A stretch of DNA of 64,000 nt, from the NCBI GenBank assembly GCA_937625935.1, contig OW569386.1, positions 62,001 to 126,000 of the forward strand. The letters are read 5' to 3'. Shown here piece by piece: positions 8,961 to 62,999 of this stretch; position 1 is the stretch's first letter, and each line of letters opens with the position of its first letter. Source of the stretch: Tetramitus jugosus (lineage: Eukaryota; Heterolobosea; Eutetramitea; Acrasida; Vahlkampfiidae). The position numbers were made by a program, and so were the translations under genes. The notes under the pieces were generated by a model. It saw only the letters and a program-made list of their open reading frames with translations, had not been told where the DNA came from and ran no database searches.

Positions 8961-10970
8961 ATGACTGAAAAGACAATCAACGAAGTAGATAGACCATTAT
9001 CTACAATGGCTTCAAGTGATATACAAGTAAAATGTGAAGACCCAACTCCTCAATCTTTCAGCGATATCAACCACCCTAATTTTGTGCCCACTCCCATGAC
9101 TCCTCTCGATCAAGTGCTGAAGAGGATGCAGAAGGATACCCCCCCATTTGCTGATTTCCTTGGTAATCCAAACCATTTTCCTCTCACCCCAACCCCAACA
9201 ATGCTCGAACAATCCGCAGAATCATCTCTATTCGACAGAGGTCCAATTCAGAGTGAATTAGAAGCTGAAGCACAACGGGTGGATGATAATGAGCTTCATC
9301 GCTTAATTCAATCATTGCTGGAAGCAATCTCAGTGTATGAACGAGAGAATCCTTTGAACCAGGAAGTAAAAAATTTAATTGAGCAGTTAAGAACTCAAAT
9401 GGTTAATGCAGAAGATTCTCTAGTTTTATCCCGAGTTAACAGTCCCTGTGATTTGGACATTGAGAAAGAGGAACCTCGGAACAGTTCTGGTCTGGTTCGT
9501 GAACCTGATCGAACCGATACATTGGATGAATTGAGAAGAGAACAAATGCTACTAGAAATCAAAGTCAAGGATATGCTCGACAGACATAGAACTGGAGACA
9601 GTCAGAATGAAGAAGGCGAGAATAAATACATCCAGTCAACAAATGACTTGAATCCCCCGCAAGATTCAACTCATGTTCCAAAAGGAAATCGGATCTCTCT
9701 GATGATTGAACAACAACCGGAGCAAAAGTTGAAAGATAGCGTATTTTACAAAGAAAGTGTTCGAGAAATGATACCTCAAGTCATGTCCTCTCTGGATCGC
9801 GACTCCCTGGAGAAAGACTTTCCTATTCAACATAAAACGATTAGACAGGAAGAACAGAGAAGAATGTCGTTGGATCTGACATTGAGTGGCTATGATAAAT
9901 CTGGAGTTGATGTGTCAACCATCCAACTACTTCAAGATCGAGAAAGATGTGAATACATCAACACGATACTTAACGATCATTTTCCCTCTCTATACGAGTT
10001 GAAGAAAATGATATTAAATTGTGACATAGAGCTCCGGAGATATCTATCTGTGTTGAAAGATATCCTACCCACAGAACAGGAGGTAGATTATGCGGTTTGT
10101 TCTGTCTGTCACCTGAATCAAATTTCAGAACACTCGATGGGCTTATTTTTGGAGAAGGCAGAAACTAAAGCGGACCAATGGATGTTGATACTGCTCATGG
10201 AAGATGAAGCCACTCCCCATAAAGGGGCACCACAGGAAGCAATACCTATAACACAACAGGCGATCCGCCAAACAAAGCAACTTCGTCACCTTGTAGAAGC
10301 GTGGATCGGATATCACAGATTTCAGTGTCTGTATCCCCTGATTAAGGAACATATCACATGTCTCGAGGAGGCATGTATGGAAATGAAGAATAGTAAGAGT
10401 TTCTTCAAGTTTTTGGGAGTTGTGTTGGCCTTGATTAATTGCTTGTATTCCACTGGAGACAGAGAGCTCATATGGGGATTCCAAATCTCATGTCTGGGAA
10501 AATTGTTAGCAGTGAAGAACGGTGACGAATCAACCTGTCTATTGAACTATATTGACCAATTATGCTGTGAAAAGTATCCAGATTTAAAGGTGGACTCACT
10601 CTTATCTGAGTTGAGTCATGTTCCGAAAGCAGCCAATATTTCACTTGACCTACTTTCTCTCCAAATAGACGAAGTTCAGGACGATCTCCATCAACTAATT
10701 CAGTTCAGAAACGAACAGGTCTTGGAGTGCAACTTTCAGCTCTCCAAATCTTTATGTGCTGATGATAGTCTAAACGAAATGCAAGATCAGTTGGCCAAAG
10801 TTGAAGAGCGCTGGACAAATCTCCTGCAGAACATACGGAGTGTGAGAGAACTGTACTGCGAAAGGGAGTCGGACCAGATGAAAACTTTCCAATCAGTTTC
10901 GCAATTTCTTGCGTCCCTGCAAGCTGCGCACCACCAAAACTCGAGCTATCCATCAACAAATGGGGAATAA
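8961..10970 (+). CDS. Formin-like FH2-domain protein
   Basis: 669 residues from ATG 8961. Residues about 1-310 are acidic, Pro/Ser-containing and lack a poly-Pro FH1 segment. Residues about 320-620 match the FH2 core: a KDILPTEQEV helix, an ADQWMLILLM helix, then LEEACMEMKNSKSFFKFLGV and GFQISCLGKLL, equivalent to the lasso/knob/post layout of formins. FH2 dimers nucleate actin filaments and track barbed ends. The canonical GNYLN motif is changed to INCLYSTGD, and the lack of FH1 suggests weak profilin-actin delivery or a regulatory role. It starts about 180 bp after the transporter gene on the same strand. The Rho-type GBD of diaphanous formins is not evident. Confidence 0.8.
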   Translation: MTEKTINEVDRPLSTMASSDIQVKCEDPTPQSFSDINHPNFVPTPMTPLDQVLKRMQKDTPPFADFLGNPNHFPLTPTPTMLEQSAESSLFDRGPIQSELEAEAQRVDDNELHRLIQSLLEAISVYERENPLNQEVKNLIEQLRTQMVNAEDSLVLSRVNSPCDLDIEKEEPRNSSGLVREPDRTDTLDELRREQMLLEIKVKDMLDRHRTGDSQNEEGENKYIQSTNDLNPPQDSTHVPKGNRISLMIEQQPEQKLKDSVFYKESVREMIPQVMSSLDRDSLEKDFPIQHKTIRQEEQRRMSLDLTLSGYDKSGVDVSTIQLLQDRERCEYINTILNDHFPSLYELKKMILNCDIELRRYLSVLKDILPTEQEVDYAVCSVCHLNQISEHSMGLFLEKAETKADQWMLILLMEDEATPHKGAPQEAIPITQQAIRQTKQLRHLVEAWIGYHRFQCLYPLIKEHITCLEEACMEMKNSKSFFKFLGVVLALINCLYSTGDRELIWGFQISCLGKLLAVKNGDESTCLLNYIDQLCCEKYPDLKVDSLLSELSHVPKAANISLDLLSLQIDEVQDDLHQLIQFRNEQVLECNFQLSKSLCADDSLNEMQDQLAKVEERWTNLLQNIRSVRELYCERESDQMKTFQSVSQFLASLQAAHHQNSSYPSTNGE

Positions 10971-11044: not shown

Positions 11045-11059
11045 ACAAGGGGAGAATTG
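11045..11059 (+). promoter_or_regulatory. Duplicated upstream element, copy 1
   Basis: ACAAGGGGAGAATTG lies 119 bp before the ATG of the first glycine-rich gene. The identical 15-mer lies 128 bp before the second, and a downstream GCAGC is also shared. It is a candidate transcription-factor site or a duplication relic. Confidence 0.5.
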
Positions 11060-11163: not shown

Positions 11164-11838
11164 ATGAGAGCTACCATTATTCTTGCTGTTCTTGTGATCT
11201 TGGCTATCGCATCCCTTGCAACTGCTTACTCTCCAAGAGGACGCAACGTTCCACAGAGAAAGTACCGTGTCAACAGTGATAGAAGCATGCCACATCCTGT
11301 CAGAAGACCATTGGCTGACTTGTCAATCAGGAGACCAGACTGGACCACTACTTATCCAACTTTCCCAACAAGACAACCAGTCTTGTTCAGCGACAAGATG
11401 GTCTACGGCCCAGCTCCAAGATACAACAGAAGACAACCTGTTTACTTGAGCGACAGAACTCTTCCATACAACCCAATCTATACCACCTATCCAATCAGAA
11501 GACAAGACTTGTTGAGCGACTCTGAACTCTTGATCATCAGAAAGGACAGATTCGGCAACATTGTTGGAAGAAATATTGTTCACAATGATGAAGAAGAACA
11601 ATGGGGTGTCAGTGGTAACATTGGCTCTGGTGGTCAATGGAACGCTGGTGGATCTTACACTGGAAGAGTTGGCAACGGTGACTTGAAGGTTGGAGGAAAT
11701 GTTGGCAACGGTGGAAACTGGGGTGTCAATGCTGGATACTCTGGCAAGATTGGAAACTCTGGATCCTACAATGTCGGTGGCAACTACAACCGTGGTGGAA
11801 ACTGGGGAGTTGGTGCTAGCGCCTCTTTCAGATTCTAA
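11164..11838 (+). CDS. Secreted glycine-rich repeat protein, copy 1
   Basis: 224 residues from ATG 11164. A clear signal peptide (about residues 1-20, MRAT followed by a Leu/Val/Ile/Ala core ending ATAYS) is followed by a basic region. That region holds repeated [RK]QPVxxSD[KR]-like motifs with dibasic pairs that could be processing sites. The C-terminal ~90 residues are Gly/Asn/Ser-rich with two 27-28-residue repeats (11638-11718 and 11719-11802), each starting WN/WG and carrying GNVGNGGN- or GNYNRGGN-like turns. The tail is WGVGASASFRF. The alternating Gly/aromatic pattern looks beta-rich and is reminiscent of attacin-type glycine-rich defence proteins, but homology is not shown. The next gene downstream is its paralogue. 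Confidence 0.85.
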   Translation: MRATIILAVLVILAIASLATAYSPRGRNVPQRKYRVNSDRSMPHPVRRPLADLSIRRPDWTTTYPTFPTRQPVLFSDKMVYGPAPRYNRRQPVYLSDRTLPYNPIYTTYPIRRQDLLSDSELLIIRKDRFGNIVGRNIVHNDEEEQWGVSGNIGSGGQWNAGGSYTGRVGNGDLKVGGNVGNGGNWGVNAGYSGKIGNSGSYNVGGNYNRGGNWGVGASASFRF

Positions 11839-12040
11839 ATTGTGTCAAATGTTTGTCGTATTTTGAATAAACAAAGATACAACATGTCTCGCCAAAAGGT
11901 GTGCCTTTTTATTGTTCTCTGCAGTACGCAATAGTAAGTGAAGCTCATGTCGCCAGAAACTTTCTCAAGTCTCCAACAAACGATGGAGAAGGGCTTCTAA
12001 CAATGGGTCCTTGGAGTCTCTGAGATGGGAGAGCACAACT

Positions 12041-12060
12041 CAATCATGTGAACATGATTG
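12041..12060. repeat. Short perfect inverted repeat
   Basis: CAATCATG and CATGATTG flank a 4-nt TGAA loop in the spacer between the two secreted paralogues. It could form a small hairpin in DNA or RNA. Confidence 0.6.
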
Positions 12061-12478
12061 GGCTCAGACATCTTCGTTCACAATGCGGATGGCTGAGATT
12101 GTGATGGTTTGGTGCATAGTATTGCTTCAAGTCAAAGTGACGTGCTTAGTGGATTCAGCCTGTTCTGATTACAGTCTGAATTCCTTCATGAAGCAGACAG
12201 CTATCATCTTCTCCAGGATTAGTCATCTTTAAAAAGAGTAATTGTACACTCATTGCAAAACAAATCCTTCCCAATATCTCCTTCAGTCACTCCTGTCTCT
12301 TCCCAATGAAGAATAACAACCAGATCTGGTTCTGTAAGGCTGGGTGGGGCGAATTCTGAGCTAGAACCCTATCAACTAACGGAGAATAAACAAAGCTCAA
12401 TCATTGGATTCTGGTCAGTCAACCTGCACTGCTTGTCATCGTCTTGTTCAAAAGTTTTTGGAAGCTTGGGGTGGTCTC

Positions 12479-12493
12479 ACAAGGGGAGAATTG
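12479..12493 (+). promoter_or_regulatory. Duplicated upstream element, copy 2
   Basis: The same ACAAGGGGAGAATTG as at 11045-11059, 128 bp before ATG 12607. A TTTAAAAG box follows about 30 bp downstream and may act as a TATA-like element. Confidence 0.5.
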
Positions 12494-12606
12494 TCGAGCA
12501 GCGGGGACCCCACAAACATTTAAAAGTCGAACCAACTGACCCAAACATTCTGAAAAACATCTCAACTAAAACATAACCCAAAACCCTTGTACTTTACTCC
12601 TACACG

Positions 12607-13407
12607 ATGAGAGCTACTGTCATTCTCGCTGTTCTTGTAATCTTGGCTATCGCATCCCTTGCAACTGCTTACTCTCCAAGAGGACGTTATGCTCCACAAA
12701 GAAAGTACCGTGTCAACAGTGACAAGATGCCATACTTTGATGAACCAGATTGCATCTCTAAGCCACCTTCATTCAGAAAGCCAATCATCTTCAGTGATAG
12801 AATGATCCTCAATCCAAACTATCCAAGATCCAGAATCGCAAGAAGACAACCAGCCTTGTTGAGTGATAAGATGGTCTACAGCCCAGCTCCAAGATACAAC
12901 AGAAGACAACCTGTCTACTTGAGCGACAGAACTCTTCCATACAACCCAATCTACACCACTTATCCAATCAGAACTCTACCATACTTGTTGAGTGACTCTG
13001 AATTGATTGCACCAGTTGAATGGGAAGGTAGAAGAATTGGCAACAGATACAGATACATGACTCACGATGATGAAGAAGATGAAGAAGAGAAATGGGGTGT
13101 CAGTGGAAATGTTGGATCTGGTGGATGGAGTGCAGGTGGATCCTACTCTGGAAAGGTTGGCAACGGTAAGGCCAGCGTTAGTGGAAACGTTTCCAAGGGA
13201 GGAAACTGGGGTGCCAGTGGATCTTACTCTGGAAAGGTTGGTAATGGTAACTTGAGTGTTGGTGGCAACGTCTCCAAGGGTGGAAACTGGGGTGCCAATG
13301 CTGGATACTCTGGCAACATTGGTAAGTCTGGATCTTACAGTGTTGGTGGTAATGTTTCCAAGGGAGGAAACTGGGGAGTTGGTGCTAGCGCCTCTTTCAG
13401 ATTCTAA
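12607..13407 (+). CDS. Secreted glycine-rich repeat protein, copy 2
   Basis: 266 residues, paralogue of the upstream gene. The signal peptide differs by a single conservative change (Ile/Val) and the YSPRGR and RKYRVNSD segments are kept. The basic middle has more [RK][RK]xP...SD[KR] units, including RRQPALLSDK and RRQPVYLSDR, and an acidic HDDEEDEEE stretch. Then come three repeats at 13126-13206, 13207-13287 and 13288-13371 (27, 27 and 28 residues) of the form WGAxGxYSGKVGNG...GNVSKGGN. The tail WGVGASASFRF is identical to copy 1. Copy 2 has one repeat more, so unit number changes by 81-bp steps. The 3' UTR start (TTGTGTCAA, then GAATAAAC) is also conserved, as expected for a recent duplication. 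Confidence 0.85.
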   Translation: MRATVILAVLVILAIASLATAYSPRGRYAPQRKYRVNSDKMPYFDEPDCISKPPSFRKPIIFSDRMILNPNYPRSRIARRQPALLSDKMVYSPAPRYNRRQPVYLSDRTLPYNPIYTTYPIRTLPYLLSDSELIAPVEWEGRRIGNRYRYMTHDDEEDEEEKWGVSGNVGSGGWSAGGSYSGKVGNGKASVSGNVSKGGNWGASGSYSGKVGNGNLSVGGNVSKGGNWGANAGYSGNIGKSGSYSVGGNVSKGGNWGVGASASFRF

Positions 13408-61352: not shown

Positions 61353-62999
61353 ATGAAATCGACATCTATTTTCATGACTCGAAGAAGGAGGAATCGACGC
61401 ACAGTTGATCATCACTGGAGGAAAATGATGAAGAGACTCTTGCTCAACTCTGCCCTGACCAGACTGGCATCCACAAAGACCACGCGTTCTGTTGGACGAC
61501 ATCTCCATCCAGAAAAGAATGGTCCACAGAGTCACATGAAGAAATCTGTGGTTCATCAGAAGAAGAGTAGGCAAGGTCACTCGAAAGAGAAGAAGGACAC
61601 CCATCATGAAGAGCCAAAGATAATTACCAAAAAAAGAGAAAGGTTGTTGAGATACACCTGGAGTTTCTTGTTCTTTGGTGTTCCGGTATTTCTCGTGTGG
61701 GATGAGTCTCAAGATGTTGAAAGAGTGGTGGAGGCGATTGAGAAGGGATCAGGTGTACAATTTCATGAGCAGGTAATGATCGCCCCAGTCAACTTGATAG
61801 ATCGAAGAAGCAGTATCGAAAAAATTCAACACATTATTAAACCAAAAAAGCAAAAGGGACCAGAGATGACCACCTTTTGTGTCATCACAGGTTCAACAGG
61901 CAGTGGCAAAACTACATTGATTGAGCAGGTGGCCAAGGAGATGGGAGAACGATTTGTGTTTATTCAGTTTGACAACAAGGGATCGAGGATGAAGGATCAC
62001 ATTATCCAACGATATGCCAAAGTGTTAAACTATCACCCTTTGATGAATGAGGAGGATTTACCCTTTTGGAAACCCTTTCTCTACAAGTTACAATCATCAG
62101 TTGCGCGAAAAACTCAGAGCAACATTCTCTCTGTGATGAAGAAGGCTTGTGGCATCATTCAGGAGAGAGATATAGAGAGACAGCAGGCGGATCCTAATTA
62201 CATCCCGAGAGTGCCCGTGTTTTGCTTTGATAACATTAATGCTTTGGTCGATGATAACTTGGAGACCTTACTTGATCAGTTTGAGGCCTCAAAAGATGCC
62301 ACTGACAAGAGATTGTACGCCAGTATCTATACACTCAATGACGCCAAAACTTTTCATATCCTGGAAGATGAAGAAGGGTTCTCTAGAGTAAATCAGCAAA
62401 TTGAAGTTAGGGATGTCAACTATGACACTGCAAAGGAATACATGAAGGAAGAAATGATTTTAGGTGAAGGATGTACAGTTGAAGATATAGATATGTTAGT
62501 CGAACAGTGCTGTGGTGGTCATTTGTTGTCCATTCAAAGCATGATCTTTCTGAGAAATTCTAGAGGCTTGAATGCGGAACAGTTGGTGGCATACGATGTA
62601 CACAAGATTAGTCTCAGAGCTTCCAAGTTTAACTTGGGAAGAAAACATCCCACTAGGTATGCAACAGCAGTGTGGAACTTACTCTATCGATTGTACGTGA
62701 GTGAAACGGGGGCTCTTTCAGAAGATGAAGCAAAGGAAGCTCTCCAACTCGAAGTGGACAAAGAAAATATGAACATGAAGTGGAAAGAGGAATTGGTTGA
62801 GGAGATTCTGGATGAGATGATCAGTAAGAACCTAATTTCTCGTGATTTACTCTCCAATAGTGTTCGGTTCCACCACAATACTGTTCGAACATATGTTCGT
62901 AATCAAATTTCGGTACACGAAACCAAGTTGGCTGCTATCCTTGAAGAATCACTTCCTAAAGATGAGGAGAATGAAGGCCACCCAACCTCCAAAAAATAA
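61353..62999 (+). CDS. Mitochondrial P-loop ATPase (STAND/AAA-like)
   Basis: 548 residues from ATG 61353; a later pair of Mets at 61425 begins MMKRLLLNSALTRLAST, a good mitochondrial presequence, and may be the true start (524 residues). A hydrophobic segment (WSFLFFGVPVFLVW, about 103-116) could anchor it in the inner membrane. The ATPase domain has Walker A GSTGSGKT (180-187), a Walker-B-like VPVFCFDNIN, then a helical lid and winged-helix-like region (VEEILDEMISKNLISRD). It belongs to the STAND/ORC-like P-loop group, similar in layout to yeast Yme2-type proteins but without an RNA-binding domain. The substrate is unknown. It shares a ~200-bp divergent promoter with the HAM1-like gene. Confidence 0.8.
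   Translation: MKSTSIFMTRRRRNRRTVDHHWRKMMKRLLLNSALTRLASTKTTRSVGRHLHPEKNGPQSHMKKSVVHQKKSRQGHSKEKKDTHHEEPKIITKKRERLLRYTWSFLFFGVPVFLVWDESQDVERVVEAIEKGSGVQFHEQVMIAPVNLIDRRSSIEKIQHIIKPKKQKGPEMTTFCVITGSTGSGKTTLIEQVAKEMGERFVFIQFDNKGSRMKDHIIQRYAKVLNYHPLMNEEDLPFWKPFLYKLQSSVARKTQSNILSVMKKACGIIQERDIERQQADPNYIPRVPVFCFDNINALVDDNLETLLDQFEASKDATDKRLYASIYTLNDAKTFHILEDEEGFSRVNQQIEVRDVNYDTAKEYMKEEMILGEGCTVEDIDMLVEQCCGGHLLSIQSMIFLRNSRGLNAEQLVAYDVHKISLRASKFNLGRKHPTRYATAVWNLLYRLYVSETGALSEDEAKEALQLEVDKENMNMKWKEELVEEILDEMISKNLISRDLLSNSVRFHHNTVRTYVRNQISVHETKLAAILEESLPKDEENEGHPTSKK

Follow-up and report, generated by a model that had tools for sequence, protein, structure and literature searches.

What do two neighbouring, related genes of the heterolobosean Tetramitus jugosus encode, when their products share a signal-like start, a Pro/Arg-rich middle and a glycine-rich (Gly-rich) end? 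The pair, here called gene 1 and gene 2, lies in a window of 64,000 nucleotides (nt), the whole stretch that was analysed (GenBank assembly GCA_937625935.1, contig OW569386.1, C43 in our numbering, positions 62,001 to 126,000 of the forward strand). It probably encodes secreted multi-peptide antimicrobial precursors that would work like insect diptericin and attacin. The initial annotation had placed two adjacent paralogues at this locus and, indeed, both open reading frames (ORFs) are open throughout (Table 1). The DNA similarity between them starts exactly at both ATGs (11164 and 12607) and ends slightly beyond the stops, and 160 of 221 aligned residues are identical. Since further in-frame ATGs occur upstream of 11164, the start of gene 1 rests on the paralogue match and the signal-like N-terminus. 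The dN/dS ratio (nonsynonymous to synonymous substitution), obtained for this one pair only, is 0.50 overall; it is lowest in the signal (0.09), higher in the Gly domain (0.29) and highest in the pro-region (0.73). Such values below 1 agree with real coding genes.

Most of the layout first described for the two proteins was recovered, namely a signal-like N-terminus (cut set by eye, with a helix predicted at residues 2-21 of the gene 2 product), [RK]QPxxxSD[KR] units occurring twice per protein, Gly-rich repeats spaced by 81/84 nt or 27-28 residues (two copies in gene 1, three in gene 2), and an identical WGVGASASFRF tail. The dibasic sites, also proposed as processing points, are unsupported, since the basic pairs sit within the units, which are repeatedly bounded by Ser/Ala-Asp or DDDE. 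Cutting the pro-regions of four family proteins after [SA]D yielded 26 units of 13-25 residues with such ends, plus four last pieces. Asp is preceded by Ser or Ala in 26 of 40 cases in these pro-regions (5/8, 5/9, 10/14 and 6/9). SD dipeptides number four in gene 1 and five in gene 2, against means of 0.54 and 0.72 in 20,000 composition shuffles; they exceed the shuffles in all four pro-regions (fractions reaching the observed count 0.00045 for gene 1, 0.00015 for gene 2, then 0 and 0.0131), indicating that the repeated units are not due to chance. Within one precursor, the units of gene 1 and of gene 2 clearly differ. The length and composition of most units fit short Pro/Arg-rich cationic peptides: among the 30 pro-region pieces, 22 are net positive, four are at zero and four are negative. 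Of the negative pieces, two are short acidic linkers and a third leads into one; the fourth is an ordinary Pro-rich unit and belongs to P0003, a relative described below.

The Gly domain is devoid of Cys and contains 30-31% Gly in all four cases examined. In the eight proteins possessing it, the final residue is always Phe, preceded by Arg or Lys, with a hydrophobic residue at -3 and, in six of them, Tyr at -5. The resulting motif, G..Y.[FILV][RK]F, presumably resembles the β-signal of bacterial outer-membrane proteins. The domain forms the protein C-terminus in six of the eight; in the other two, P0004 and P0005, DDDE directly adjoins the final Phe, and this sequence arrangement suggests that the acidic stretch may be an excised linker. 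An AlphaFold model of the gene 2 protein shows a disordered pro-region and a β-meander, with a predicted local distance difference test (pLDDT) of 74-87 across the last 86 residues. In a structure search, this meander matches transmembrane β-barrels.

The genes do stand in tandem, but they are not a family of two, as they had first appeared. Searches of the genome (26.35 Mb, 56 contigs) added five genes, three with the Gly domain and two linked by a six-Cys module; the family thus has at least seven genes, as such searches can overlook copies that have diverged or are interrupted by introns. A paralogue on C42 (341 amino acids, aa) has the architecture of the gene pair, with ten SD-ended units, several of which are near-repeats. 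Two repeat-rich paralogues, on C43 (421 aa, with the later of its two in-frame ATGs chosen as start) and on C4 (329 aa), carry a Cys-containing N-terminal part, many 'EDWKVYGNAANGGQWNAGFEW..DDEEE' repeats and then the family tail. In these two paralogues, L010 (2263-3525, minus strand) and L011 (2740-3726, plus strand), the N-terminal part is short and of the form CxxxC...CxxxC, and the many 'WKVYGNAANGGQWNAGFEW' repeats are set apart by acidic spacers. The two six-Cys genes, L019 (1309-1659) and L020 (1309-1656), are 95% identical, lie on different contigs and encode 115-116 aa, with a signal-like start, one Pro/Arg-rich unit with an SD end and the Cys module. Their only link to the rest is the Cys module that P0004-P0006 also carry (E 0.0019 and 0.0026), and neither gene 1 nor gene 2 was recovered when the genome was searched with one of the two. 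Two weak places from the L019 search were not counted, one (E 0.25) being an unrelated-looking ORF of 530 aa and the other (E 1.78) containing stops.

Among 5.8 billion proteins, where the P0004-P0006 searches scored only the candidates with most shared words, four unnamed relatives were found (P0003, P0004, P0005 and P0006). P0003 has the architecture of the gene pair, and P0004-P0006 carry similar Pro-rich units between DDDE spacers instead of [SA]D borders. Taken together, the relatives reshuffle Pro-rich units, the Gly-rich domain ending in ...RF, the six-Cys module and Lys-rich helices, with DDDE between them; in P0006, Cys, helix and Pro-rich modules were recognized by eye. P0004, P0005 and P0006, all Joint Genome Institute (JGI) proteins, are DDDE-spaced precursors with up to four antimicrobial-type module classes per chain. 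The helical moment of two of the five helix modules lies above shuffles at p<0.05. Some units have close parallels, for instance QPVLFSD of gene 1 and RPVLFDDDE of P0005, or RPIMFSD of the C42 paralogue and RPIMYDDDE of P0006, and PSPTFPTRP and KPSGC.C.KF are also common to the SD-border and DDDE-spacer sets, these short motifs having been spotted by eye, without a chance estimate. With the Gly domain, three modules therefore tie the two sets together.

From this architecture we infer secretion, cleavage, antibacterial action and targets. Once the signal has been removed, proteolysis, perhaps by an endo-lysosomal Asx protease of the legumain type, would open the chain at its Ser/Ala-Asp borders and in the acidic stretch that precedes the Gly domain, releasing short Pro/Arg-rich peptides and a Gly-rich β-sheet piece. 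Asp borders would suit such an enzyme. The genome holds three C13 (legumain-type) protease loci, one or more of which, we presume, may be the glycosylphosphatidylinositol (GPI)-anchor transamidase. Judged from the sequences, cleavage at Asp borders appears likelier than at dibasic pairs, because the latter lie within the units and a genome search at E≤0.001 detected no kexin/furin P-domain (P_proprotein); since that search matched only one of 14 control genomes, all prokaryotic, dibasic kexin/furin processing was set aside with the absence of the domain unproven. A more specific scheme is tentative and rather doubtful. In it, combinatorial precursors would join Asp-bounded Pro/Arg peptides with an intracellular target to an outer-membrane-protein mimic, whose β-signal-like C-terminus would poison the β-barrel assembly machinery (BAM) or itself enter the outer membrane; a protist lineage would have evolved the strategy of insect diptericin/attacin on its own, with phagosomal release by legumain, not furin.

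The family is unnamed and has no Pfam entry; it is not attacin by hidden Markov model (HMM), nor saposin-like. The two proteins themselves, for which the initial annotation recognized no family, have no Pfam domain by hmmscan and no convincing sequence relative in the PDB, where P0002, the gene 2 protein, retrieved only an engineered protein (E 0.02). The C42 pro-region had no match in a PDB set that excludes chains under 20 residues. Three weak PDB rows for L019 were not credible, the best (E 0.014) being a respiratory-chain subunit over the signal and Pro-rich part. Saposin families gave no hmmscan match at E≤10 in 11 proteins scanned, at a setting where HMMER filters discard most matches above about 0.1. 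Porin_4, whose cut-off is 27 bits, matched the two repeat-rich paralogues, one above that value at 33.9 and the other below it at 25.4. Since the first of them also scores above the cut-off for Protamine_P2 (27.7 vs 25), we take these matches to reflect the composition of the repeats and the pattern of strands rather than ancestry, and rejected porin membership. Defensin membership was rejected as well, Defensin_2 on L010 being weak (E 0.045, below cut-off), and so was direct attacin membership, no attacin HMM having matched. Searches with short exact patterns, which distant relatives would escape, gave no confirmed relative in viral contigs (A1, A2, A3) or in prokaryotic contigs (A1, A2), and neither a viral nor a bacterial origin was retained. 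Among the literature matches listed, in which subscription papers and preprints are thinly covered, no title dealt with precursors of attacin-like or Pro-rich peptides from amoebae or heteroloboseans.

Several observations weigh against an attacin-like antimicrobial function. By hmmscan at E≤10, with the HMMER filtering noted above, no attacin family was found in gene 1, gene 2, P0003-P0005 and three paralogues, and a genome search with Attacin_C (PF03769) gave no match, as it gave none in the control genomes. Attacins contain 14-22% Gly (PMC10690985, available part), compared to 30-31% in the family domains, and attacin is described as a random coil in water (PMC7924397, available part), in contrast to the sheet predicted here. 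The gene 2 model, built on four sequences, is weak overall (mean pLDDT 54.2, predicted template modelling score (pTM) 0.33), and residues 161-180 of its Gly domain reach a pLDDT of only 41-58. Foldseek with this model returned no match at E≤0.001, and its 50 listed rows include unrelated entries, e.g. amine oxidases; AlphaFold2 may tend to fold any regular Gly-rich repeat into barrel-like sheets. The Gly domain of P0005 was modelled with seven strands at low confidence, and the P0005 model was set aside as too uncertain (mean pLDDT 39.8). The Gly-domain link to P0004/P0005 is short, though robust to composition shuffling. Moreover, three of the five helix modules are no more amphipathic than shuffles, eight of the 30 pro-region pieces are not net positive, and the Cys-plus-repeat paralogues are strongly acidic (charge about -54 for L010 and -50 for L011), unlike typical antimicrobial proteins.

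Could the pair instead encode a cell-coat, cyst-wall or adhesive protein? The chain would then stay uncleaved, its Gly-rich sheet being insoluble and its disordered Pro/Arg linker binding acidic polysaccharide. The 27-28-residue period of the Gly-rich repeats, their varying copy number, the lack of Pfam domains in the pair and the silence of the attacin-family HMMs would suit such a protein. However, in the relatives the Gly domain is accompanied by a six-Cys module and by Lys-rich helices and, where the domain comes first in the chain, its terminal Phe abuts DDDE, which a glue or coat leaves unexplained; we consider this explanation unlikely. It is quite improbable that the protein serves as a digestive permeabilizer, with the uncleaved chain or its Gly domain forming a phagosomal β-barrel pore in the outer membrane of prey and the Pro/Arg part acting as a cationic targeting tail or inhibitory pro-peptide. 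The barrel-type fold matches and the predicted disorder of the pro-region would fit a pore, as would the Porin_4 matches, though composition may drive these. On the other hand, the Pro/Arg-rich units recur with regular SD borders, exist without the Gly domain in two genes and lie between DDDE spacers in P0004-P0006, and thus have the look of separate products. Secreted signalling or mating peptide precursors, laid out like neuropeptide precursors, would also account for the repeated, regularly bordered units, among them the near-repeats on C42. Such a role seems very remote, given that the units differ within each of gene 1 and gene 2 and that their mix with a Gly-rich β domain, a Cys module and Lys-rich helices is more antimicrobial-like.

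The two genes also share a 15-mer, ACAAGGGGAGAATTG, in their upstream regions. Its first 14 bases have no other exact match in the genome (26.3 Mb), so that it may be a regulatory site kept in the duplicated pair. A promoter common to the whole family was rejected, since none of the other five members has the 14-mer within 400 nt upstream; only short A/C-rich words occur more widely in the upstream regions. The GC content of the window is 38-45% in 2-kb blocks, and Naegleria genomes are tabulated at 35-37% (PMC9928731, available part). The best PDB matches of the adenosylhomocysteinase are 5v96 (810 bits) and 6uk3 (806 bits), the enzymes of Naegleria fowleri and Acanthamoeba castellanii, whose scores lie too near each other to separate the two lineages; a bacteria-eating amoeba, as supposed in the initial annotation, is a plausible host. 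Five scanned neighbour genes are ordinary (CorA, FH2, AKAP7/KH, DnaJ and ACBP). In the ORF at 8961-10970 (669 aa), the only Pfam domain at E≤0.001 is the formin domain FH2, matched over model positions 39-371 of 372.

Table 1. Features of the gene pair, in window coordinates
Feature	Description	Position (nt)	Strand	Basis or remark
Gene 1 (P0001)	224 aa precursor	11164..11838	+	intact ORF; paralogue similarity begins at its ATG
Gene 1 putative signal peptide	...SLATA/YS cut set by eye	11164..11226	+	sequence; helix 2-21 in gene 2 model
Gene 1 pro-region	Pro/Arg-rich; 5 units with [SA]D ends and a final Pro-free piece	11227..11586	+	
Gene 1 [SA]D borders		11275-11280, 11314-11319, 11389-11394, 11449-11454, 11515-11520	+	
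Gene 1 Gly-rich β domain	83 aa, 31% Gly, no Cys, end GASASFRF	11587..11835	+	
Gene 2 (P0002)	266 aa precursor	12607..13407	+	intact ORF
Gene 2 putative signal peptide	cut set by eye	12607..12669	+	sequence; predicted helix 2-21
Gene 2 pro-region	Pro/Arg-rich; 5 SD-ended units and a last piece entering the acidic linker; predicted disordered	12670..13077	+	
Gene 2 SD borders		12718-12723, 12793-12798, 12862-12867, 12922-12927, 12991-12996	+	
Gene 2 Gly-rich β domain	109 aa, 30% Gly, no Cys; longer than in gene 1 by one repeat unit (net 26 aa)	13078..13404	+	
15-mer upstream of gene 1	ACAAGGGGAGAATTG, begins 119 nt before the ATG	11045..11059	+	common to both upstream regions
15-mer upstream of gene 2	ACAAGGGGAGAATTG, begins 128 nt before the ATG	12479..12493	+	common to both upstream regions

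With their length of about 20 residues, the Pro/Arg-rich units recall insect proline-rich peptides (drosocin, metchnikowin, apidaecin, pyrrhocoricin and abaecin), among which apidaecin comes as several units per precursor; the Asp borders distinguish the gene pair. The P domain of diptericins is also Pro-rich. Naegleriapores provide the case of an amoeba multipeptide precursor, several bioactive peptides being cut from one Naegleria precursor (Herbst 2004, cited in the available part of PMC10506718), but they are saposin-like, and no saposin family was found in the 11 proteins scanned. Diptericins are described with a P-domain and G-domain layout (PMC12940664, available part), and the signal, pro-region and Cys-free Gly-rich C-terminal domain of attacins and diptericins are present in the gene pair too. 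Fly attacin is predicted to form an antiparallel β-sheet resembling membrane pores or Gram-negative outer-membrane barrels (PMC10690985, available part), as the gene 2 Gly domain is here, both being predictions. Unlike the insect proteins, the pair has regular 27-28-residue repeats and several SD-bounded Pro/Arg units. Furthermore, a conserved furin-type RXXR frees mature attacin (PMC7924397, available part), whereas RXXR lies near the junction (last 40 pro residues) in only two of four family proteins. The attacin comparison made by the initial annotation thus stands as a likeness in working, through the β-meander resembling membrane barrels and the relatives with antimicrobial-type modules, and fails as Attacin_C membership by HMM. 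By analogy, the gene pair would resemble attacins and diptericins in working, and we do not claim shared ancestry. The family described here lacks a Pfam entry, and its modules can be made and tried directly on laboratory bacteria. If the antimicrobial reading is true, it would offer a second family for asking whether glycine-rich antimicrobials act as pores or block outer-membrane protein assembly. A protist would then possess a peptide arsenal built, like insect attacin/diptericin, from two parts, proline-rich peptides and a glycine-rich domain, and this would point either to convergent evolution or to a very ancient origin.
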